Of a stretch of DNA of 64,000 bases, positions 35,221-49,652 are shown in pieces. Source of the DNA: Akkermansiaceae bacterium. GTDB lineage: Bacteria; Verrucomicrobiota; Verrucomicrobiia; Verrucomicrobiales; Akkermansiaceae. The stretch is from positions 1 to 64,000 of the forward strand of contig JABDRB010000003.1 in NCBI GenBank assembly GCA_013041925.1, read 5' to 3'. Position 1 is the first letter of the stretch. Each line of letters begins with the position of its first letter. Position numbers and translations under genes: made by a program. The notes below the pieces were generated by a model. It saw nothing but the letters and a program-made list of their open reading frames with translations, was not told the origin of the DNA and ran no database searches.

Positions 35221-35531
35221 GCCCATTCCTCCCATGTTTCAGCACCCTTGCCAACCCTGAAAATCTCGGAAAATTAGTATCTCGCTAAAAAACCGCCACC
35301 CTGCTTAAATCTCGTAGATCTCTGCCACCCGCAAATACTCAGAGGCTTCGACTAAAGCCAAGCCTAAAGGCCCGAGCCATCCCGCTCGGCGATGACCGCA
35401 CACGGGTAATCGATCCCACCTATACACCAATCACAACCAAGAAACGCAGCACCCCCTTGAAACAGCGCGTCAGGGAGCTAGTTTTACAAGCAGTCCAAAA
35501 CCAAACGAAGCCTAATTATCCAATATCTGAG
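35221..35531. other. Intergenic region between fabG and the amidohydrolase gene, with two hairpins
   Basis: A 311-base gap without a convincing gene. Near the middle, AGGCTT (35343-35348) can pair with AAGCCT (35360-35365), and CCGAGC (35372-35377) pairs perfectly with GCTCGG (35384-35389). The two hairpins lie side by side about 140 bases before the amidohydrolase start. No T run follows, so they are not terminators. Confidence 0.4.
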
Positions 35532-37163
35532 ATGACAACCATTCACCATTCAACCATGACCTCAACTAAGAACCCTCCCGTAAAAAAGCAACTTTCTAGC
35601 AGTGGTTCGCACACCATCAGTCTTTGCCTCTTTTCCCTATGCGCTGCCATCTCCACCTGGTTCGCCGATGCCGACCCAGCAGCAAATCCGGAACAGCTCA
35701 ACCCGACGCAACTTCAGGCCTACCTGCTGATGGGTGGCGCCGGCATCGCCCAAGCCCAAGCCGTCCCTGCCGCAGACCAAACTACGCTGCTCAAGCGCTG
35801 CTGGATCATCAACAAGCAAGGGAGATGGGAGTCAGCCAAGGTCTCTGCTGGGGAATTACCCACCATCGGCACCGACACCCAGTCCTGGAGCGGACCCGCA
35901 CTGGACTTCGCCCAGGAAATGCTCAAGCAAAAACCCAAAGTTCAGATCGGCCTGATTTTCAATGCCCAGCCTGATACCAACATCGAAGACTGCTGTGGCA
36001 TAAAAACCCCCGCCTACCGCTTCAGCCGCAAATACAGCCGTATCGCCATAAAGCAAGGCACTCTCAAGGGCATGCTGTGGCAAGGAAGTGGCGCCATCAG
36101 CCCGCTCTTCACCGACCTCGACCACCTCGAAAACCTAATTTCGAACATACGCACCGATCTGCGTCTGCTGGAACTCCCCTTTGTCGCAGGTGAAACCCTA
36201 GGCAAAAAATCCGCCAACACCCAGCTGCACGCACTAACCCAGGACGTTCATGCCACCGCCGTGGCCCCAACAGGATCCGGCGGCGCGGGTTATGCCAAAG
36301 CCATGCTGCAACTCGAAAAGGAATGGCCAGACAACCTCCCCACTCCCAAGCCAACTGTCCCAGTCATCGACCCACACATCCACGCCATGGCGGCCAAGCC
36401 CGGAGGACTGGACATAGTGGCCGAGTGGATGAAGCGCAACGATGTCGAGCGCTGCATCACCAGCCCCCTCGGCCAATCGCGCGCCACCACCCTTGAAGAG
36501 CGGAAAATTATGCTCGAAAACCACCGCAAGTATCGCGGTAAAATCGATCGTTTCTGCCTGATCAAACCCGACGAAGTGGCAACACTCGAGGAAGCTGTCA
36601 AAATCCTTAAGCAGGAGAAAACCGAGGGTGCCGTCGGCTTCGGCGAGCATTACGGCCACGACCTGATGTTTGATGACCCCAAGAACGTTCTGCTCTATCA
36701 AGCCTGCGGCAAGGTCGGTCTACCGGTGATGTTCCATATCGACGCCAGCAAGAACATGGTCAAGCAAGGCATGCGCCGAGTCGAGCGGGTGCTCGAAATC
36801 TGCCCCGACACCAAGATCATCGCCCACGCCTACTGGTGGCTCCACCTACCCAACGGCACCTGTGAGCGTATGCTCTCCAAATACCCCAACCTCTATGCCG
36901 ATGTCTCAGGAACACGCATGGTCAGTGTACTCAACCGCGACCGCAACTACAGCCGCAAGTTACTGACCCAGTACCAAGACCGGATTCTATTCGCCACCGA
37001 TGCTGGCTGGTGGTCCTTTAGCAAGCCGATCAAGGAGCGCGAACTACAATTCGAGTTATTTGAGCGACTAGGGTTGCGGGGTGAGATCAAAGAGAAGATC
37101 TATCGAAAAAACGCGATGACGTTGTTTGGCTGGAAGCCGCAAATTGAAAGTCCTAAAGAATAA
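35532..37163 (+). CDS. Exported amidohydrolase fused to a SASA-like domain with altered active site
   Basis: About 543 residues from ATG 35532; TTG 35457 and ATG 35556 are alternatives. A signal-like segment (HTISLCLFSLCAAISTWFAD) precedes residues about 55-250, which follow the sialate-O-acetylesterase/CE6 (SASA) layout: YLLMGGAGIAQ, GPALDFAQEML, VQIGLIFNA, IKQGTLKGMLWQGSGA, LELPFVAGETLG. The usual catalytic GQSNMAG and WHQGE are replaced, so esterase activity is doubtful. The second half is an amidohydrolase_2-type barrel: VIDPHIHAM, VGFGEHYGHD, PVMFHIDASKN, TKIIAHAYW and ILFATDAGWW, with metal and catalytic residues present. The substrate is unknown. It converges on the DUF1080 gene. Confidence 0.78.
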   Translation: MTTIHHSTMTSTKNPPVKKQLSSSGSHTISLCLFSLCAAISTWFADADPAANPEQLNPTQLQAYLLMGGAGIAQAQAVPAADQTTLLKRCWIINKQGRWESAKVSAGELPTIGTDTQSWSGPALDFAQEMLKQKPKVQIGLIFNAQPDTNIEDCCGIKTPAYRFSRKYSRIAIKQGTLKGMLWQGSGAISPLFTDLDHLENLISNIRTDLRLLELPFVAGETLGKKSANTQLHALTQDVHATAVAPTGSGGAGYAKAMLQLEKEWPDNLPTPKPTVPVIDPHIHAMAAKPGGLDIVAEWMKRNDVERCITSPLGQSRATTLEERKIMLENHRKYRGKIDRFCLIKPDEVATLEEAVKILKQEKTEGAVGFGEHYGHDLMFDDPKNVLLYQACGKVGLPVMFHIDASKNMVKQGMRRVERVLEICPDTKIIAHAYWWLHLPNGTCERMLSKYPNLYADVSGTRMVSVLNRDRNYSRKLLTQYQDRILFATDAGWWSFSKPIKERELQFELFERLGLRGEIKEKIYRKNAMTLFGWKPQIESPKE

Positions 37164-39659: not shown

Positions 39660-39964
39660 GGCGGTTTCCGAGAGGTGTGATTGAGATAAAAAAGAGAAAT
39701 GAATGAGACAACGTGCCTACGAACGATTCGTTGTCATCCGTAGTGCGGGCGAATTGAAAAGCATTAACCACCTCAAAAATCAAGCGTAATATGTTTTAAT
39801 TGATCATTTTCTGTCATTCAGCCGATGATATCAACCACTCGCATCGCATCCTGCGATTAACATCATTTTTCGCAAGACATTCGTCCGTCGATGAATCAAA
39901 GTATCGCCATCCTCTACGGCAGCCTTCTTTTCGCTGCGTTCTCCCACCTCATTTTCTAAGCCTC
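39660..39964. other. Divergent intergenic region between rpoZ and the Ppx-like gene
   Basis: A 305-base region. It holds the inverted repeat GACAACG/CGTTGTC (39707-39735) on the rpoZ side, an AT-rich middle part (about 39780-39830), and a tiny hydrophobic reading frame at 39891-39959. No firm promoter is called. Confidence 0.4.
39891..39959 (+). CDS. Possible 22-residue hydrophobic peptide upstream of the Ppx-like gene
   Basis: ATG 39891 to TAA 39957-39959 encodes MNQSIAILYGSLLFAAFSHL plus IF, a single membrane-helix-like peptide. Its stop is five bases before the ATG of the Ppx-like gene, so translation could be coupled. No Shine-Dalgarno site is seen. A frame this short can occur by chance. 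Confidence 0.25.
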   Translation: MNQSIAILYGSLLFAAFSHLIF

Positions 39965-41512
39965 ATGACCCCAGCCTCCCCTCCCTCGCTGCAAGCATCC
40001 ATCCACCTCGGAGCCAGCTCGATCTCGCTGCTGGTGGTGGAAAACCTCACCAACTCGGTCGGCGAACCCGTCGATTTCCTTGAGCAGTCAGTCCCTCTAG
40101 CCCAGGATATTTTCCAACGCGGCAGCATCCGCAGATCAACGATCGAGCGCTGCGTTTCCATCCTCAATGGCTACCGGGAAACCCTGCGCGAACTCGGCGC
40201 GGGCGATGACACCCCGATCCGAGCCGTCGCCACCAACGTGCTCGACGAAGCCCCTAACCAAGACGCTTTCATCAATCGCATCCAAATCGGCTGCGGACTT
40301 CACGTCGAAACCCTCGATGAGGGCGAGATGACCCGGCTGATCTACCTCAAAACCCGCCGCCGGCTACGCGACACCCCGTCGATGAAAAAATGCACCACCC
40401 TCGTCGTGCATGTCGGACCAGGAAACACGCGCGCCCTGCTTTTCAAAAATGGACAGATTTCTGACTACAGCAACTACCGCCTCGGAGTTTATCGCACCAG
40501 CGAGGCAATCACCAACAACCAAAACAGCCAAGACAGTGGTGCCAGCACCACCAAGATGATCCGTGAGCACATCCACAGTCAAATCAGTCAAATCCAGAAC
40601 GATTACGCGGATGCGGGTGTGCAGGAACTCGTCGTGATCGGATACGAAATCCAACACCTCGCCCACGAGCTCGCCAAACCTGGCAAAACGAAAAGCACCT
40701 ACCGAGCACTCGCCGAGACATCCGCTCAGATCGCCTCCATGACCGAGGAGATGCGGGTAAAAAACTACCAGCTTGATTACAACACCGCCCAAGCCGTCAT
40801 CCCCGCCTTGGAAATCAACCTCGCCATCGCCGAAACCCTCCAGGTAAAAACCCTGCGCCTTCCCGGAAGTGATTACGAACGTGGCCTACTGCTCGATATC
40901 CCTGCCTCGTTTTCACTCACCGAGGGGTTTCAAAAAGAGGTCCTTCGTTCCGCCGAGAGCCTTGCCCGCAAGTATCGTGTCCACCTTGCCCACGCGGCAC
41001 AAGTCACTCAGTTAAGTCAGCAAATTTTTGACGCCACCACCGAGCTCCATCAGCTCGATGAACATGACGCCCTCCTGCTGCGTTGCTCCGCCATTCTCCA
41101 CGAGTGCGGAAATTTCATCAACGCCCGCGCCCACCATAAACACTCGCAATACATCATCCAAAACAGCGAGGTTTTTGGACTAGGACAAAAAGACATCCAA
41201 ATCATTGCCCTAGTTGCTCGCTACCACAGAAAATCCATCCCGAAACCTAACCACCCGGACTACCGAGAGCTCAAATCACACGACCGGATGCGTGTCTCCA
41301 AACTCGCCGCCATCCTTCGCATTGCAGACGCTCTCGACCGGAGTCACTCGTCACGCATCGGAAAAATCAGCATCCGCGCAGAAAAACAAAAACTCAACAT
41401 TGACCTCCACGGCATCGCAGACGCCTCGGTAGAACGCATGGCCATGCGCTCGAAATCAAACCTCTTCCGAGACATCTACGGCCTCGTAGTTGCACTGCAC
41501 GAGAGCCTCTAA
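39965..41512 (+). CDS. Ppx/GppA-like protein with HD-type C-terminal domain, altered active-site motifs
   Basis: 515 residues from ATG 39965 (the frame opens at 39800 but earlier codons are unlikely). Overall it aligns with exopolyphosphatase/pppGpp phosphatase: N-terminal ASKHA domains (about 1-300) and an HD-like C-terminal domain (HLAHAAQVTQLSQQIFDA, AILHECGNFINARAHHKHSQ, ARYHRKSIPKPNHPDYR), close to E. coli Ppx. The active-site motifs differ: DxGSNS is HLGASS (H14), the GxEEARL glutamate region is EGEMTRL (120-125), and DIGGGST is HVGPGNT (149-155). It may be a non-catalytic or regulatory form. ppk follows 40 bases later. Confidence 0.83.
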   Translation: MTPASPPSLQASIHLGASSISLLVVENLTNSVGEPVDFLEQSVPLAQDIFQRGSIRRSTIERCVSILNGYRETLRELGAGDDTPIRAVATNVLDEAPNQDAFINRIQIGCGLHVETLDEGEMTRLIYLKTRRRLRDTPSMKKCTTLVVHVGPGNTRALLFKNGQISDYSNYRLGVYRTSEAITNNQNSQDSGASTTKMIREHIHSQISQIQNDYADAGVQELVVIGYEIQHLAHELAKPGKTKSTYRALAETSAQIASMTEEMRVKNYQLDYNTAQAVIPALEINLAIAETLQVKTLRLPGSDYERGLLLDIPASFSLTEGFQKEVLRSAESLARKYRVHLAHAAQVTQLSQQIFDATTELHQLDEHDALLLRCSAILHECGNFINARAHHKHSQYIIQNSEVFGLGQKDIQIIALVARYHRKSIPKPNHPDYRELKSHDRMRVSKLAAILRIADALDRSHSSRIGKISIRAEKQKLNIDLHGIADASVERMAMRSKSNLFRDIYGLVVALHESL

Positions 41513-41552
41513 CCCCCGCCCATCCCCTCATCCTCCTTTTCCCCATCCCACC

Positions 41553-43658
41553 ATGCCCTTTATCAATCGCGAATTATCCTGGCTTGAGTTCAATCAACGC
41601 GTGCTTAACGAAGCCCAACGTGAAGACCTCCCACTACTGGAACGACTCAAGTTTCTAGCCATCACGGCATCCAACTTAGACGAGTTTTTTCAAGTCCGTG
41701 TCGGTGGTCTTCACCTGCAACGCTCATCGGGTTCTCGCAAACATGGCATCACTGGGCTCACCCCGGGACAACAGCTCGTGGCAATCCGCACCCGGGCCAA
41801 AACCATGATTGAGGAGCAATACCACCTCCTCAATAGTCAGCTACTCCCCGCACTCGCCAACGAAGGATTACGGCTCACCGATGGCAAGACGATCACTCCC
41901 ATGGAGCATCAAACCCTCTCCAACCGCTTTGAAGATGTGATCTTCCCCTTACTCACCCCCCTCGCCTACGATCCAGAGAGTAAGGCTCCCCTCTTGCCCT
42001 CCATGCGGATCATTCTGGCATGCGAACTTGAAAACCATGACGACCACACCACGCGCTGCGTCTTCATCCCTGTGCCCGAGGGCATCTCACGTTTCACCCA
42101 TATTCCATCATCCGACACCTCCCCTGACACCCAGGAAGAACACATCATCCCCGTGGAGGAAATCATCACCCTCTTTGCTGGCGACCTATTTCCTGACGAG
42201 AAAGTTCTCTCGACCATGCCCTTCCGGATCACCCGAAACGGAGACATCGCCGTGCAGGAAGAAGACGCCATCGACCTCGCAGGTGAAATGGAGGAAGTCC
42301 TCGCCGCACGCAAAAATAGCCAAACCGTCCGGCTCGAACACGCCGCGAAAGTTCCAAGCCGACTCAAGCGCATCGTCCGCGAAGTCGTCTCAGCTGGCCC
42401 ACGTGAAACCTCCATCACCGCCGGCCCGCTCGCCCTCACCGACTTCATGAGCCTCGCCTTCACCTCCGGCTACAATCACCTGCGCGATGAAGTCTGGGAA
42501 CCTCAACCGTCACCAGACATCGAACCCGGAACATCCCTTTTTGAAACCCTCGCCGAGCGCGACATCCTGCTCAATCACCCCTATGAAAGCTTCGAGCCTG
42601 TGCTCCGCTTTTTAGAAGAAGCCGCCAGCGACCCGTCCACCATCGCCATCAAACAGGTCCTCTACCGCACCGCATCCGATTCCCGTATCATTGACGCCCT
42701 GATCAAAGCCGCAAACAACGGTAAACAAGTCACCGTCCTCATCGAGCTCAAAGCCCGCTTCGACGAAGCCCGCAACCTCATGCGGGCCGATGAACTCCAA
42801 CGCGCCGGCGTCCAGATCGTCTACGGTGTCAAAGGACTAAAAACCCACGCCAAAATCTGCCTCGTCATCCGCAACGAAGACGGTCAACTCAAACGCTACG
42901 TCCACCTCGGCACCGGTAACTACAACGAGTCCACCGCCCGACTCTACACCGACATTTCCTACCTCACCTCACGGCCAGCCTATGGTGCCGATGCATCACT
43001 CCTCTTTAATGCCATCACTGGGCGCTCCAAGCTCACACGGTTCCGAAAACTGATCCCCGCACCCACCCACATGAAACCAAGGCTGCTGGAACTCATCGCC
43101 GCCGAGTCGAAACGTGCCAAAAATGGCGAACCCGCAGCCATCACCGCCAAGGTGAACTCACTCCAAGACGAGGAAATCATCCGCGCCCTCTATCTCGCAT
43201 CCAAAGAAGGGGTCAAAATCAACCTCAATATCCGCGGAATTTGCTGCCTCAAAACAGGTAAACGCAAGGAGGCCAAAAATATCCGCGTCGTCTCCGTCAT
43301 CGACCGCTACCTCGAACACGCCCGCATTTTCTCATTCCACCACGGCGGCAGCCCGCTGGTCTTTATCGCATCAGCCGACTGGATGACGCGCAACCTCGAC
43401 AAGCGGGTCGAGCTGATGATCCCCATCGAAGACAAAACCTGCCGGAAACGTCTGCAAGACATCCTCAATGCCGCCTTCAAAGACAACAGCAACGGCTTCG
43501 AGATCCTCCCCGATGGGTCATCTCAACGGGTCGAACGCAGCAAAGGACAAAAACGCTTCCGCATGCAGGATCACCTCCAGCAACAAGCAAAACGCACCGC
43601 CCGCGCCCGCGCCCACGAACGCAGCACCACATTCGAACCCCATACTCCATCCGATTAA
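41553..43658 (+). CDS. ppk: Polyphosphate kinase 1
   Basis: Makes polyphosphate from ATP at the membrane face. Start ATG 41553 (701 residues, MPFINRELSWLEFNQRVLNE); the frame open from 41490 overlaps the preceding gene. Signatures: LKFLAITASNLDEFFQVRVG, HPYESFEPVLRFLEEAA, LYRTASDSRIIDALIKAANN, the phosphohistidine region GVKGLKTHAKICLVIR and the second conserved His in FSFHHGGSPLVFIASADWMT, RNLDKRVELM. All PPK1 catalytic residues appear present. The C-terminal 25 residues are basic and variable. It probably shares a transcript with the Ppx-like gene. Confidence 0.96.
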   Translation: MPFINRELSWLEFNQRVLNEAQREDLPLLERLKFLAITASNLDEFFQVRVGGLHLQRSSGSRKHGITGLTPGQQLVAIRTRAKTMIEEQYHLLNSQLLPALANEGLRLTDGKTITPMEHQTLSNRFEDVIFPLLTPLAYDPESKAPLLPSMRIILACELENHDDHTTRCVFIPVPEGISRFTHIPSSDTSPDTQEEHIIPVEEIITLFAGDLFPDEKVLSTMPFRITRNGDIAVQEEDAIDLAGEMEEVLAARKNSQTVRLEHAAKVPSRLKRIVREVVSAGPRETSITAGPLALTDFMSLAFTSGYNHLRDEVWEPQPSPDIEPGTSLFETLAERDILLNHPYESFEPVLRFLEEAASDPSTIAIKQVLYRTASDSRIIDALIKAANNGKQVTVLIELKARFDEARNLMRADELQRAGVQIVYGVKGLKTHAKICLVIRNEDGQLKRYVHLGTGNYNESTARLYTDISYLTSRPAYGADASLLFNAITGRSKLTRFRKLIPAPTHMKPRLLELIAAESKRAKNGEPAAITAKVNSLQDEEIIRALYLASKEGVKINLNIRGICCLKTGKRKEAKNIRVVSVIDRYLEHARIFSFHHGGSPLVFIASADWMTRNLDKRVELMIPIEDKTCRKRLQDILNAAFKDNSNGFEILPDGSSQRVERSKGQKRFRMQDHLQQQAKRTARARAHERSTTFEPHTPSD

Positions 43659-43751: not shown

Positions 43752-43827
43752 GCAGGAATAGCTCAGTTGGTAGAGCATCTCGTTTACACCGAGGCGGTCG
43801 GGGGTTCAAGTCCCTCTTCCTGCACCA
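43752..43827 (+). tRNA. tRNA-Val (anticodon UAC)
   Basis: Complete cloverleaf of 76 bases. Acceptor GCAGGAA (43752-43758) pairs with TTCCTGC (43817-43823), discriminator A, and the CCA end is encoded. D arm GCTCAGTTGGTAGAGC, anticodon stem TCTCG/CGAGG with loop TTTACAC, giving anticodon TAC. The T arm carries GGTTCAAGTCC. The gene stands alone, 93 bases after ppk. Confidence 0.97.
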
Positions 43828-43835
43828 TCTTTTTT

Positions 43836-43864
43836 AGGCTCAGATTAACCCCTGAGCCTTTTTG
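43836..43864 (+). terminator. Terminator after tRNA-Val
   Basis: AGGCTCAG (43836-43843) pairs with CTGAGCCT (43852-43859) around an 8-base loop and is followed by TTTTTG. It ends the tRNA transcript. Confidence 0.88.
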
Positions 43865-44248
43865 TTTCTGCGAAACCTTGTTTTTAACGAAACGCCACAT
43901 GCAGGCGATGAGCCCGATTCATTCTGAGCCATCGACATAAAAAAAAACATCACGCGTGTGAACAGCGGCACTACTTCAGCTATACATTATCCACCTCATT
44001 TCTTTCCAAACTTTGCATTTGCATCATCCATGAATTTATTGTTATACCTCAATTTAATGACTCTCTAGCTCGGAGCATTGTGTTGGAGAGATCAAACAGC
44101 CCCCCACCGTCAACCTCAATCAGATCACCTTACCCTAACACGCATCGCGGCTCGATCTCCGCCTGAACGGCAATCTCCCATCGATCACCTTGAAACACGG
44201 TGGCCAAAAATTCTCGACCCCCAAACAAAAACCAACAAAACCAATAAA
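43865..44248. other. Intergenic region upstream of the MscS-like gene
   Basis: 384 bases without a gene I can support. It holds a sigma-70-like promoter (44019-44047) and a weak CGATG/CATCG stem near 43908-43935 followed by an A run. The frame open from 44078 into the MscS-like gene is low-complexity and not conserved-looking. Confidence 0.5.
44019..44047 (+). promoter_or_regulatory. Sigma-70-like promoter of the MscS-like gene
   Basis: TTGCAT (44019-44024), a 17-base spacer and TTATAC (44042-44047). It implies a leader of about 195 bases before ATG 44249. The same -35 form, TTGCAT, is seen before rpoA. Confidence 0.45.
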
Positions 44249-45484
44249 ATGACCCAACAAATACAAACCCTCGCAGCAACAACCACCATTGGAGCCATAG
44301 GAACCCTAGGTGAAAAGCTCAGCGAATTCTTATCCACAGTCCAGCAAGGCATAGATACCCTTGGCCCTATCGGCGGCTTCATCCTCGCTATTGTCGTATT
44401 CCTCATCGGGCGAGTTGTTGCCCGTATGATCCGAGGCCTAATTGTCAAAGGTCTGGATAAAACCAGCCTCGACGATAAATGCGGCAAACTCCTCGGCTAC
44501 TCAAGCGGTGCAGGACAAGGCATTGCCAACTTCATCTATGGCCTTATGTTACTCTTCCTCGCCATTCTGGCATTGGGAGTCGCCAAGCTCGATAAAGTCA
44601 GCACACCTCTTCAGGCGATGCTCGAAGAGTTCTTAGGCTTCATCCCGAACCTCGTCGGAGCAGGAGTCCTACTCTATCTCGTGCTCATTGTGGCCAAGGT
44701 AGTCAAAAATCTTGCAGGCAATATTCTCCAAGCAGGCAAACTCGATGAACGCCTCGGAGCATCCAAGGGTGAGACACCTATCACTAGCGCCATCGTCATG
44801 GCTCTCTACTGCTTTATTGTTCTCCTGTTTATTCCAGCTGTCCTCGATGTGCTGAACCTTGCCAGCGTATCCAAACCCGTAGGTGGCGTTGTCCAACGCA
44901 TCCTCGATGCCGTCCCTAACATCATCCTCGCAGCAATCCTTATCGGCCTCGGTATTCTTATCGGTCAGATCGCGCGCCGCTTGGTGACCAATCTGCTCGA
45001 TGCAGCCGGAGCCAACCAGTGGCCAGCAAAAATCGGTCTGGATATCCCCACCGAAGGGGATCGCTCGCTCAGTAACATCACAGGTTTTCTGGTCATGATC
45101 AGTGTAGCCATACTCATGATTGGCGCGGCCATTGACCAGCTGAACATTGAACTCCTTGCCGGCGCATCCCAAGTCATCGTAGAGGGATTCTTTAATATCC
45201 TCATCGCCATCCTGATCTTTGGTGCAGGCATCCTGGCCTCAAAATTCGCCTACCGCAACCTGGCTGATAAAAATGTCATCCTCGCTAAGGTCGCTAAGGT
45301 TGCGATCCTTGTGGTCACTGGCGTCATTGCCCTGCAACGCACTGACCTCGCTCCCGAGCTTACAGGTCTGCCATACACCGCCACGATCTACGCACTGGCG
45401 TTTGCCGGAGGTGTAGGAGGAGCCATCGCCATAGGCCTCGGCGGGAAGGACTTTGTGTCCCGCAAGCTCGAAGATAAAAAATAA
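44249..45484 (+). CDS. Mechanosensitive-channel-like membrane protein (conserved TM-helix repeats)
   Basis: Inner-membrane protein of 411 residues from ATG 44249. It has several hydrophobic helices arranged as repeats of helix plus amphipathic segment: GGFILAIVVFLIGRVVARMI, FIYGLMLLFLAILALGVA, LVGAGVLLYLVLIVAKVVKN, PNIILAAILIGLGILIGQIA, GFFNILIAILIFGAGILASK. RMIRGLIVKGLDKTSLDDKC fits the conserved TM-helix (PF05552-type) domain linked to small-conductance mechanosensitive channels. A full MscS beta-domain is not evident at the C-terminus, so channel function is a family-level guess. Confidence 0.78.
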   Translation: MTQQIQTLAATTTIGAIGTLGEKLSEFLSTVQQGIDTLGPIGGFILAIVVFLIGRVVARMIRGLIVKGLDKTSLDDKCGKLLGYSSGAGQGIANFIYGLMLLFLAILALGVAKLDKVSTPLQAMLEEFLGFIPNLVGAGVLLYLVLIVAKVVKNLAGNILQAGKLDERLGASKGETPITSAIVMALYCFIVLLFIPAVLDVLNLASVSKPVGGVVQRILDAVPNIILAAILIGLGILIGQIARRLVTNLLDAAGANQWPAKIGLDIPTEGDRSLSNITGFLVMISVAILMIGAAIDQLNIELLAGASQVIVEGFFNILIAILIFGAGILASKFAYRNLADKNVILAKVAKVAILVVTGVIALQRTDLAPELTGLPYTATIYALAFAGGVGGAIAIGLGGKDFVSRKLEDKK

Positions 45485-47894: not shown

Positions 47895-49652
47895 ATGATC
47901 ATTTGGACCACACTCATCGCTATTCTTAAAATCCTCGGTTCTCTCGGAATCTTCCTCTATGGAATGAAGGTCATGTCTGAGGGCATCCAAAAGGCAGCCG
48001 GTAGCGGCATGCGGCATGCGCTCGCCACCATGACGCACAACCGAGCCAGCTCCGTGTTCACCGGATTCTTTACCACCTCAATGGTCCAGTCGTCGTCAGC
48101 AACCACCGTGCTTGTTGTCAGTTTTGTCAATGCCGGCCTGCTCACACTCACTGAATCCATCGGCGTGATCATGGGAGCCAACCTCGGCACCACCATCACG
48201 GCATGGCTGGTCGCGTGGATTGGAAAATTTAGCATCTCGGCCATCACCCTGCCGATCATTGGCGTGGGCCTGCCCCTGTTCTTTATCGGCAAAGCTAAAG
48301 CCAAAGCCTCTGGTGAAACACTGATCGGCTTCGGCCTCCTGTTTACCGGACTTTCTTACCTCAAAAAATCCGTGCCCGACCTCAAAAGCGGAGTCAAAGC
48401 CAATGCCGAACTGCAGGAAACTGTCCAAGGCGTCATCGATACACTCAACGGCTTCGGCTATGGCTCGGTGGTCCTTTTCCTGATTGCAGGCATCCTGCTG
48501 ACTCTGATTGTCCAGTCGTCATCGGCCGCCATGGCCATCACGATCACCTGCGCATGGAATGGATGGTTCGGAGCCGACCCCTACGAGGCATTTAAAATCT
48601 CAGCCGCCGTTGTCCTCGGTGAAAATATTGGAACCACGGTGACCGCATGGCTGGCATCCATCGGAACCAACGTCAGCGCCAAACGCGCTGCCCGCGCTCA
48701 CTTCTTGTTTAACGTTATCGGTACGATATGGGCACTGGCCCTGTTCTATCCTCTCTCAAAATTCATTTGGAGTATGACGGGCATCTTCCCAGATAGCATC
48801 GTCGAAATCAAAACAGCCAAGGGCGACGCCGCCAGCCAACTCACCATCGTCGCGTTCGCTGTCGCCCTATTCCACACCACATTCAACCTGATCAATATCT
48901 TCCTCCTCGTCTGGTTCGTTCCCCACATTGCCAGTGCTGTCAAAAAGTGGGTCAAAGACCCCGACTCCGACGAACAAGAAACCCACCTTCGATACATTTC
49001 ACAAAACCTCGTCGACCTCGGAGAACTCAACATTGCTGAGGCCGAAAATGCCGTCCGTAAAATGTCCCAACTCTGTGTGGATATGTTTAACGGATTTATC
49101 GATGTCTTTGAACACCCCAAAGACGACATGTCCGCTCAGGTAACCGCCCTCAAGAATATCGAGGATGAATCTGACCTAATGATGCAAGAGATCACCCTCT
49201 ATCTCGTCCGCTGCTCGTCCAAGGACATTGGTGACCACAATGCCACCCGCATCGCCGCCATGCTTAGAGTGACCCAAGAAATCGAGGAATGTGTCGACTG
49301 CATCTACCGCCTCGTCAAACTCAACGAACGCCGCTACAAAAAAGACCGCCAATTCTCAGCTGACCAACTCGACACCCTGCGTGAATACGCTGGTAGCATC
49401 TCCCAATTCATCAAGTTCACTGACGCCAACCTGCTGGCTCGGATCTCACCCGAAAACCTCAAAAAAGCCAAGGCGATGGAAGATACCTCCGACACCATGC
49501 GTAAAAAGTTTAATAAGAGTTCAATGAAGCGTATGGCCGATGGTAACGTCAAGCTGGAGATGATCTACATCGATATCAACAATCACTTTGAGGCCATCGC
49601 CAACCACGCCCTGAACATCGTTCAGACCAGCCAAACCATGCACGAGGATTAG
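47895..49652 (+). CDS. Na/phosphate cotransporter with PhoU-like C-terminal domain
   Basis: Membrane protein of 585 residues. Two inverted NptA repeats carry the QSSSA motifs: FTTSMVQSSSATTVLVVSF (near residue 60) and TLIVQSSSAAMAITITCAW (near 205), with GANLGTTITAWLVAW and GENIGTTVTAWLASI after each. Residues about 370-580 are a cytoplasmic PhoU-like helical bundle (LNIAEAENAVRKMSQLCVDM, DISNHFEA-type end IDINNHFEAIANHALNIV). It probably takes up phosphate with sodium, or exports it, with the PhoU part as regulator. Confidence 0.93.
   Translation: MIIWTTLIAILKILGSLGIFLYGMKVMSEGIQKAAGSGMRHALATMTHNRASSVFTGFFTTSMVQSSSATTVLVVSFVNAGLLTLTESIGVIMGANLGTTITAWLVAWIGKFSISAITLPIIGVGLPLFFIGKAKAKASGETLIGFGLLFTGLSYLKKSVPDLKSGVKANAELQETVQGVIDTLNGFGYGSVVLFLIAGILLTLIVQSSSAAMAITITCAWNGWFGADPYEAFKISAAVVLGENIGTTVTAWLASIGTNVSAKRAARAHFLFNVIGTIWALALFYPLSKFIWSMTGIFPDSIVEIKTAKGDAASQLTIVAFAVALFHTTFNLINIFLLVWFVPHIASAVKKWVKDPDSDEQETHLRYISQNLVDLGELNIAEAENAVRKMSQLCVDMFNGFIDVFEHPKDDMSAQVTALKNIEDESDLMMQEITLYLVRCSSKDIGDHNATRIAAMLRVTQEIEECVDCIYRLVKLNERRYKKDRQFSADQLDTLREYAGSISQFIKFTDANLLARISPENLKKAKAMEDTSDTMRKKFNKSSMKRMADGNVKLEMIYIDINNHFEAIANHALNIVQTSQTMHED

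Follow-up and report, generated by a model that had tools for sequence, protein, structure and literature searches.

The polyphosphate locus described here raises the question of what becomes of an exopolyphosphatase when the residues of its catalytic site have been exchanged. The locus lies in a window of 64,000 nucleotides (the whole stretch of DNA that was analysed), positions 1 to 64,000 on the forward strand of contig JABDRB010000003.1 in the Akkermansiaceae bacterium assembly GCA_013041925.1. There a gene for a member of the Ppx/GppA family, called pseudo-Ppx below, is followed by ppk, the gene for polyphosphate kinase 1 (Ppk1; Table 1). A first-pass annotation of this DNA had noticed altered motifs in pseudo-Ppx and suggested that the protein binds polyphosphate (polyP) or (p)ppGpp without cleaving it, thereby regulating the kinase next door. 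The alignments presented here indicate that metal-dependent hydrolysis of polyP by domains I and II has very probably been lost, and that the state that took its place is kept throughout the Verrucomicrobiales.

By descent, pseudo-Ppx is a Ppx/GppA protein. It passes the cut-offs of two Pfam models, PF02541 (Ppx-GppA; 68.2 bits, cut-off 27) and PF21447 (Ppx-GppA domain III; 112.2 bits, cut-off 27.3), and has both the ASKHA domain pair and the HD-like C-terminal fold. In sequence, the solved structures nearest to it include those of the Deinococcus radiodurans (8jgo, E 1.6e-46) and E. coli (E 4.7e-22) exopolyphosphatases. An AlphaFold model, made with the window protein and 58 homologues, has a mean predicted local distance difference test score (pLDDT) of 90.8 and a predicted template modelling score of 0.87, and its best fold matches are Ppx/GppA structures aligned over almost the full length. 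Both 2flo and 8jgp give a Z of 26.1, with root-mean-square deviations of 6.7 over 480 aligned residues and 15.7 over 458, respectively; the latter value is large because the domain arrangement differs.

Within this familiar fold the catalytic site has been rebuilt. The motifs HLGASS (with H14), DEGEMTRLIY (M122) and HVGPGNTR (H149, P152, N154 and R156) include all three alterations first noticed (HLGASS, EGEMTRL and HVGPGNT). When the protein is aligned with Ppx and GppA of E. coli and with the D. radiodurans enzyme (DrPPX), they fall on the metal- and phosphate-binding loops and on the catalytic glutamate. The available text of PMC11234463 gives the catalytic acids of DrPPX as D7, E114, D136 and E143. 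Pairwise and multiple alignments alike put H14, M122, H149 and R156 at these sites; the counterparts in E. coli Ppx are D17 (the Asp of motif 1, numbered on the translated gene), E121, D143 and E150. The change is therefore larger than the first-pass annotation had it, the replacement of the fourth acid by R156 having been overlooked. Nor is an intact catalytic glutamate to be found elsewhere in "GEM", whose Glu aligns with the non-catalytic E120 of E. coli while the Met aligns with E121. Along the third loop, H149 stands for D143, P152 for G146, N154 for S148 and R156 for E150 of E. coli Ppx. In the model, H14 ends strand 9-15, M122 lies in helix 119-136, H149 ends strand 144-150 and R156 lies in strand 155-161, and the elements that hold these residues match those of the Ppx fold.

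What was noticed in one sequence is shared by its relatives. Of 125 distinct full-length homologues, 117 scored at least 340 bits against the window protein; rows below that score (eight intermediate rows and more distant ones) were held apart, and duplicates that shared a stretch were removed before the 117 were counted. In all 117, which come from Verrucomicrobiales, M122, H149, P152, N154 and R156 are invariant, as are N91, G120, Y168, R172 and R177. Agreement at the motif columns is partly by selection in 65 of these rows, which came from a pattern search that included GPGNTR (80 of 581 confirmed relatives kept); the other 52 came from a whole-protein search and are free of motif ascertainment. 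Recounted by source, the five substituted columns agree in 65/65 and 52/52 rows. Synonymous codons vary at H149, P152, N154 and R156 (118 rows, window included), and three further loci (L156-L158 in our numbering) show the same loops. Named hosts include Akkermansia, Rubritalea, Luteolibacter, Haloferula, Roseibacillus, Prosthecobacter, Verrucomicrobium and Brevifollis. Since every homologue shares the five residues while their codons vary wherever a residue has more than one, chance or sequencing error is excluded, and the new residues are seen to be under strong purifying selection across the order. A degenerate pseudogene was rejected on the same two observations, one internal TGA being listed among the homologues (genome G132).

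The positions that hold the polyP chain have been exchanged as well. In DrPPX these are H14, K35, R37, R271 and R302, according to the available part of PMC11234463; they align with S21, E40, S42, T274 and E305 of pseudo-Ppx, and R86 aligns with D94. Pseudo-Ppx thus has neither the four catalytic acids of a functional exopolyphosphatase nor its basic polyP-holding residues and R86. E. coli Ppx has a net charge of -4 over the acid columns and the window protein one of +2 (homologue mean +1.9); over the six polyP columns the values are +5.5 and -3 (homologue mean -1.8), the means being taken over 51 of the 52 whole-protein rows, with one gapped row left out and His counted as 0.5. With the holding positions neutral or acidic, binding of polyP through the canonical channel, one part of the original suggestion, is not supported by the alignment; the other part, that there would be no cleavage at the Ppx site, agrees with the loss of all four acids and the order-wide persistence of that state. 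An ordinary exopolyphosphatase with tolerated substitutions would suit the overall Ppx fold, the family membership and a gene that adjoins ppk as in E. coli. That reading is nevertheless highly improbable, given that three acids have each become one fixed residue and the fourth His, Tyr or Phe in every homologue with a letter there, and that the polyP-holding basic residues are replaced too.

There is some indication of how the rebuilt site arose. Eight distant homologues from two families of the same class (f8 and f10) have Asp at position 14 in 7/8, Glu at 122 in 6/8, Asp or Glu at 149 in 8/8 and Glu at 156 in 8/8. On a 47-row tree from which the trait columns were left out, one change accounts for the Met state, and the sister clade shows the states DEDE, DEEE, DVEE and YAEE at the four sites. 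The tree is quick, with long branches and an outgroup that is not clean, and is used only for the single change and the sister relation. At three sister-clade loci (L056, L065 and L066) the catalytic Glu has been separately lost, to Val or Ala, with Glu kept at the D143 and E150 sites.

A second, functional Ppx in the window genome was considered and rejected, as there is one PF02541 match, pseudo-Ppx itself, and one protein match. Among the matches listed, PF02541 is found in 181 of 288 genomes of the order, and in this list, which is complete at its strong end, only three matches exceed 100 bits (G482, 275.4; G026, 125.8; G326, 107.9; the next is 74.5). Those three carry canonical DxGSN and DxGGGS motifs. 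Several genomes of one genus (g3) that have pseudo-Ppx are absent among the matches listed (e.g. G084, G093 and G155). Most genomes of the order appear, from these searches, to have no ordinary exopolyphosphatase. The only DHHA2 protein of the window genome was also tried as an alternative exopolyphosphatase and set aside; it has CBS and DRTGG domains and fits a Mn-dependent pyrophosphatase (NF011448, 627.7 bits, cut-off 562).

The company that the gene keeps points to polyP all the same. The Ppk of the window looks intact, as had been thought: 232 of the 688 residues of E. coli Ppk are identical, the E. coli residues H435 and H454, which we take to be the catalytic pair, correspond to H453 and H472, and TIGR03705 is matched at 785 bits (cut-off 466). 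Of 78 named loci with enough flanking sequence to tell, 60 have Ppk1 directly downstream of pseudo-Ppx and in the same orientation, and so do 44 of 52 other loci (the remaining 8 do not). PPK2 lies upstream and divergent in 36 of 70 named loci and 16 of 51 others, and where it does so a PPK2/pseudo-Ppx/Ppk1 cassette is formed; in the window genome PPK2 is on another contig (C11). The named and other sets may share organisms, and gene distances were measured between stop-to-stop frames. Within a set of 58 genomes (the window genome and relatives), pseudo-Ppx occurs in 39 (40 matches, a 65-residue fragment in G039 excluded), and Ppk is matched in 38 of the 39, in G032 by a fragment at a contig end; in G003, where there is no Ppk match, the pseudo-Ppx gene ends with the contig. 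Sister lineages show the same order of Ppx-like and Ppk genes. Adjacency and co-occurrence, on which the proposed tie to the kinase can now be rested, show that the pseudo-Ppx gene forms part of a polyphosphate module together with Ppk1 and, at many loci, PPK2.

Table 1. Features of the pseudo-Ppx/ppk locus, in window coordinates
Feature	Position	Strand	Basis
Pseudo-exopolyphosphatase, 515 aa, ASKHA domains I-II and HD-like domain III/IV	39965..41512	+	Open reading frame (start codon ATG at 39965), Pfam, alignments, AlphaFold model
H14 codon, at Mg-binding Asp (DrPPX D7)	40004..40006	+	Alignment; H 88, Y 22, F 6, gap 1 of 117
M122 codon, at catalytic Glu (E. coli E121, DrPPX E114)	40328..40330	+	Alignment; M in 117/117
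HVGPGNTR loop (H149-R156) replacing DIGGGSTE	40409..40432	+	Alignment; H149, P152, N154 and R156 each 117/117
Stretch with HD-type site of domain III: H343, H379, E380, H393, H421, D455	40991..41329	+	115-117/117 homologues; fold match to HD hydrolases
ppk (polyphosphate kinase 1)	41553..43658	+	ATG 41553, 40 nt past pseudo-Ppx stop
Intergenic region 5' of pseudo-Ppx/ppk pair	39660..39964	.	Sequence and promoter scan; no forward sigma-70-like site found

Around the pair, a tRNA-Val gene (tac; 43752-43827) stands directly 3' of ppk, with a terminator-like hairpin at 43836. It is followed at 44078-45484 by a membrane protein with three copies of an MscS-type conserved transmembrane helix (PF05552) and no further Pfam match. 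A Na+/inorganic phosphate cotransporter with a PhoU domain is encoded at 47895-49652, about 4.2 kb downstream of ppk, and a single frame at 35457-37163 combines an esterase domain of SASA type with an amidohydrolase domain (Amidohydro_2).

The second ligand that had been suggested, (p)ppGpp, finds no support in this genome. The RelA_SpoT synthetase model (PF04607) has no match in the window genome (G000, 98% complete) or, in all, in 57 of the 58 genomes, while a control search matched in 11 of 14; the (p)ppGpp synthetase that would be expected in an organism with a GppA-type pppGpp phosphatase is thus missing from the model matches. The only match among the 58 genomes is at G030:C127:11794-12120, in a frame of 331 aa. 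The part available of an earlier survey likewise reports zero RelA/SpoT homologue (RSH) proteins in three Verrucomicrobia (PMC3153485). Because the synthetase was not found and the phylum is reported to lack RSH proteins, a GppA-like role is unlikely; although the common domain architecture speaks for it, a part in hydrolysing or sensing (p)ppGpp in the manner of GppA is the least credible of the readings weighed here.

The C-terminal domain tells a different story. It was described at first as HD-like and well kept, which holds, but the description missed an intact HD-type site that may be a working one. The domain matches the HD model PF01966 at 29.4 bits (cut-off 22), with a candidate ligand set of H343, H379-E380 and D455 in which Glu replaces Asp of the HD dyad; the residue set presumably resembles the one that binds metal in HD enzymes of the two-metal kind. 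At H343 and D455 E. coli Ppx has Q332 and V443, respectively, and E. coli GppA has Gln at 421. DrPPX keeps the whole H343-D455 set in the alignment, HE included, so the HD-type site predates the Verrucomicrobiales clade. A model of the isolated domain (pLDDT 94.0) matches Ppx/GppA entries at Z 18-23 and then HD proteins at Z of about 10-12 over 116-170 residues, among them 2pq7 (Z 11.5, 116 aligned), SAMHD1 (Z about 10-11) and PgpH (Z 10.0). With these and the HD-GYP proteins it shares the fold and the H..H..H..H..D potential ligands; it departs from them in having HE for the HD dyad and in being fused behind an ASKHA pair. A likeness between domain III of Ppx/GppA proteins and the HD domain of SpoT is described in the available text of PMC12248826, and no report of an activity, metal or substrate for domain III was found in the portions of the open-licence papers searched.

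Relatives of domain III that stand alone or are fused to CHAD have an HD dyad where the fused protein has HE. At three loci of family f8 relatives (L052, L053 and L065) a Ppx-like gene and Ppk are followed by a fusion of an HD-type Ppx domain III to CHAD, a polyP-binding domain (as given in the part available of PMC6537752); the fusion suggests an HD enzyme that works on or near polyP. The window genome has no match to CHAD (PF05235), and a CHAD-bound polyP partner there was rejected for that reason.

These features make up the main rival to a regulatory role. On this view the HD-like domain would be the enzyme at work, a metal-dependent phosphohydrolase whose substrate is the end of a polyP chain or a nucleotide, and the rebuilt ASKHA domains would regulate it or present the substrate to it. 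Activity would then have shifted from one end of a two-site ancestor to the other, opposite to the course taken by E. coli Ppx, whose HD site is degraded. The near-invariance of the six site residues, the Q332 and V443 of E. coli Ppx, the alignment of the fold with HD proteins and the canonical dyad of the stand-alone and CHAD-fused relatives are all in keeping with this idea. Set against them are the HE dyad itself, the same HE site in the active DrPPX (retention may be structural), the silence of the searched literature on a metal or substrate, and the incomplete sets of E. coli Ppx and GppA. On balance the idea is a possible one that we hold to be rather unlikely.

The best single account, in which our confidence is about even, is that pseudo-Ppx regulates the Ppk1/PPK2 polyphosphate module. 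The domain I-II cleft, no longer able to hydrolyse polyP with a metal ion, would now use a new basic patch, H149 and R156 together with H14, to hold either a protein surface or a small phosphate-bearing ligand (inorganic phosphate (Pi), pyrophosphate or a nucleotide). Occupancy of the cleft would be relayed via the linker to the HD-like domain and would set the activity of Ppk1, PPK2 or both. PolyP would then be consumed by PPK2 and by the reverse reaction of Ppk1 instead of being hydrolysed to Pi. PPK2 is present in 51 of the 58 genomes, which gives them a phosphate-transfer route for using up polyP; that this route is taken, and that pseudo-Ppx controls the kinase, we infer.

Several observations weigh against this account or parts of it. 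Changing any one of the DrPPX acids to Ala lowers kcat/Km from 2.28 to 0.04-0.1, which speaks for the account, but the single-site mutants retain a residual kcat of 1.75-4.5 per s (both from the available part of PMC11234463), which is why we infer the death of the site from four simultaneous changes. Ppk1 does not adjoin pseudo-Ppx in 18 of the 78 named loci. Among the 19 genomes without pseudo-Ppx, 14 have Ppk and 5 do not, and most genomes of two families (f2 and f3) have Ppk without pseudo-Ppx. Full-length Ppk proteins score 630-683 bits in the f2/f3 genomes that lack pseudo-Ppx, as opposed to 732-819 in genomes that have it, but G056 is an exception, with a high-scoring Ppk (783 bits) and no pseudo-Ppx. 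The regulatory role and the ligand are themselves putative, and with its HD site intact the protein could be an enzyme instead of a regulator.

The rebuilt cleft might also catalyse new chemistry without the classical metal site, for instance phosphate transfer via H149 with R156 assisting. Binding-only sites often tolerate more change than is seen here, and the extreme conservation of the cleft His, Arg, Asn, Pro and Met would thus favour catalysis. We consider it improbable, however, as no homologue with such chemistry was found and position 14 is Tyr or Phe in 28 of 117 homologues, so that the His pair is not essential. An order-wide Ppx relative with a reversed-charge, strictly kept site is probably either a regulator or the seat of new chemistry. 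More specific, and doubtful, is a class of polyP regulator that would combine a charge-inverted ASKHA pocket for a metal-free phosphate ligand with an HD domain that is an active phosphohydrolase, controlling the Ppk1/PPK2 module where recognisable exopolyphosphatases and (p)ppGpp synthetases are lacking.

Pseudo-Ppx was compared with the known systems closest to it. Ppx (E. coli 1U6Z; D. radiodurans 8JGO) has the same full-length fold and domain order, with a ppk neighbour in E. coli and a common HE-type HD site in D. radiodurans, but its four catalytic acids and polyP-holding basic residues are all replaced in pseudo-Ppx. GppA (E. coli 6PBZ; H. pylori PPX/GppA 6PC0) shares the architecture and differs in the same catalytic acids, and the window genome has no recognisable (p)ppGpp synthetase. 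Yeast Rtg2 is a signalling regulator of the Ppx (ASKHA) family. According to PMC5417653 one of its acids differs (Q165 in place of E150); it retains E137 and D158 and is believed to bind ATP, whereas pseudo-Ppx has none of the four acids. M. tuberculosis Rv1026 is a Ppx/GppA homologue for which the part available of PMC3411833 reports no detectable exopolyphosphatase or pppGpp hydrolase activity; its catalytic residues, unlike those of pseudo-Ppx, are still in place, and it has ATPase activity. Together, Rv1026 and Rtg2 argue that family membership does not secure activity, although neither has all four acids replaced. In the open-licence literature searched, as far as its text was available, no paper on this protein was found, either as an inactive or pseudoenzyme Ppx or as an exopolyphosphatase of Verrucomicrobia or Akkermansia.

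For the organisms concerned, the Ppx/GppA match found in most Verrucomicrobiales genomes that have one, Akkermansia included, is very probably not an exopolyphosphatase. If that is true, to infer polyP degradation from the presence of this gene would be wrong for the Verrucomicrobiales. The family would be a naturally occurring example of a catalytic site that was exchanged and afterwards became fixed, with other states in sister lineages, and it may offer a testable instance of polyphosphate kinase control in bacteria that seem to lack the stringent response.

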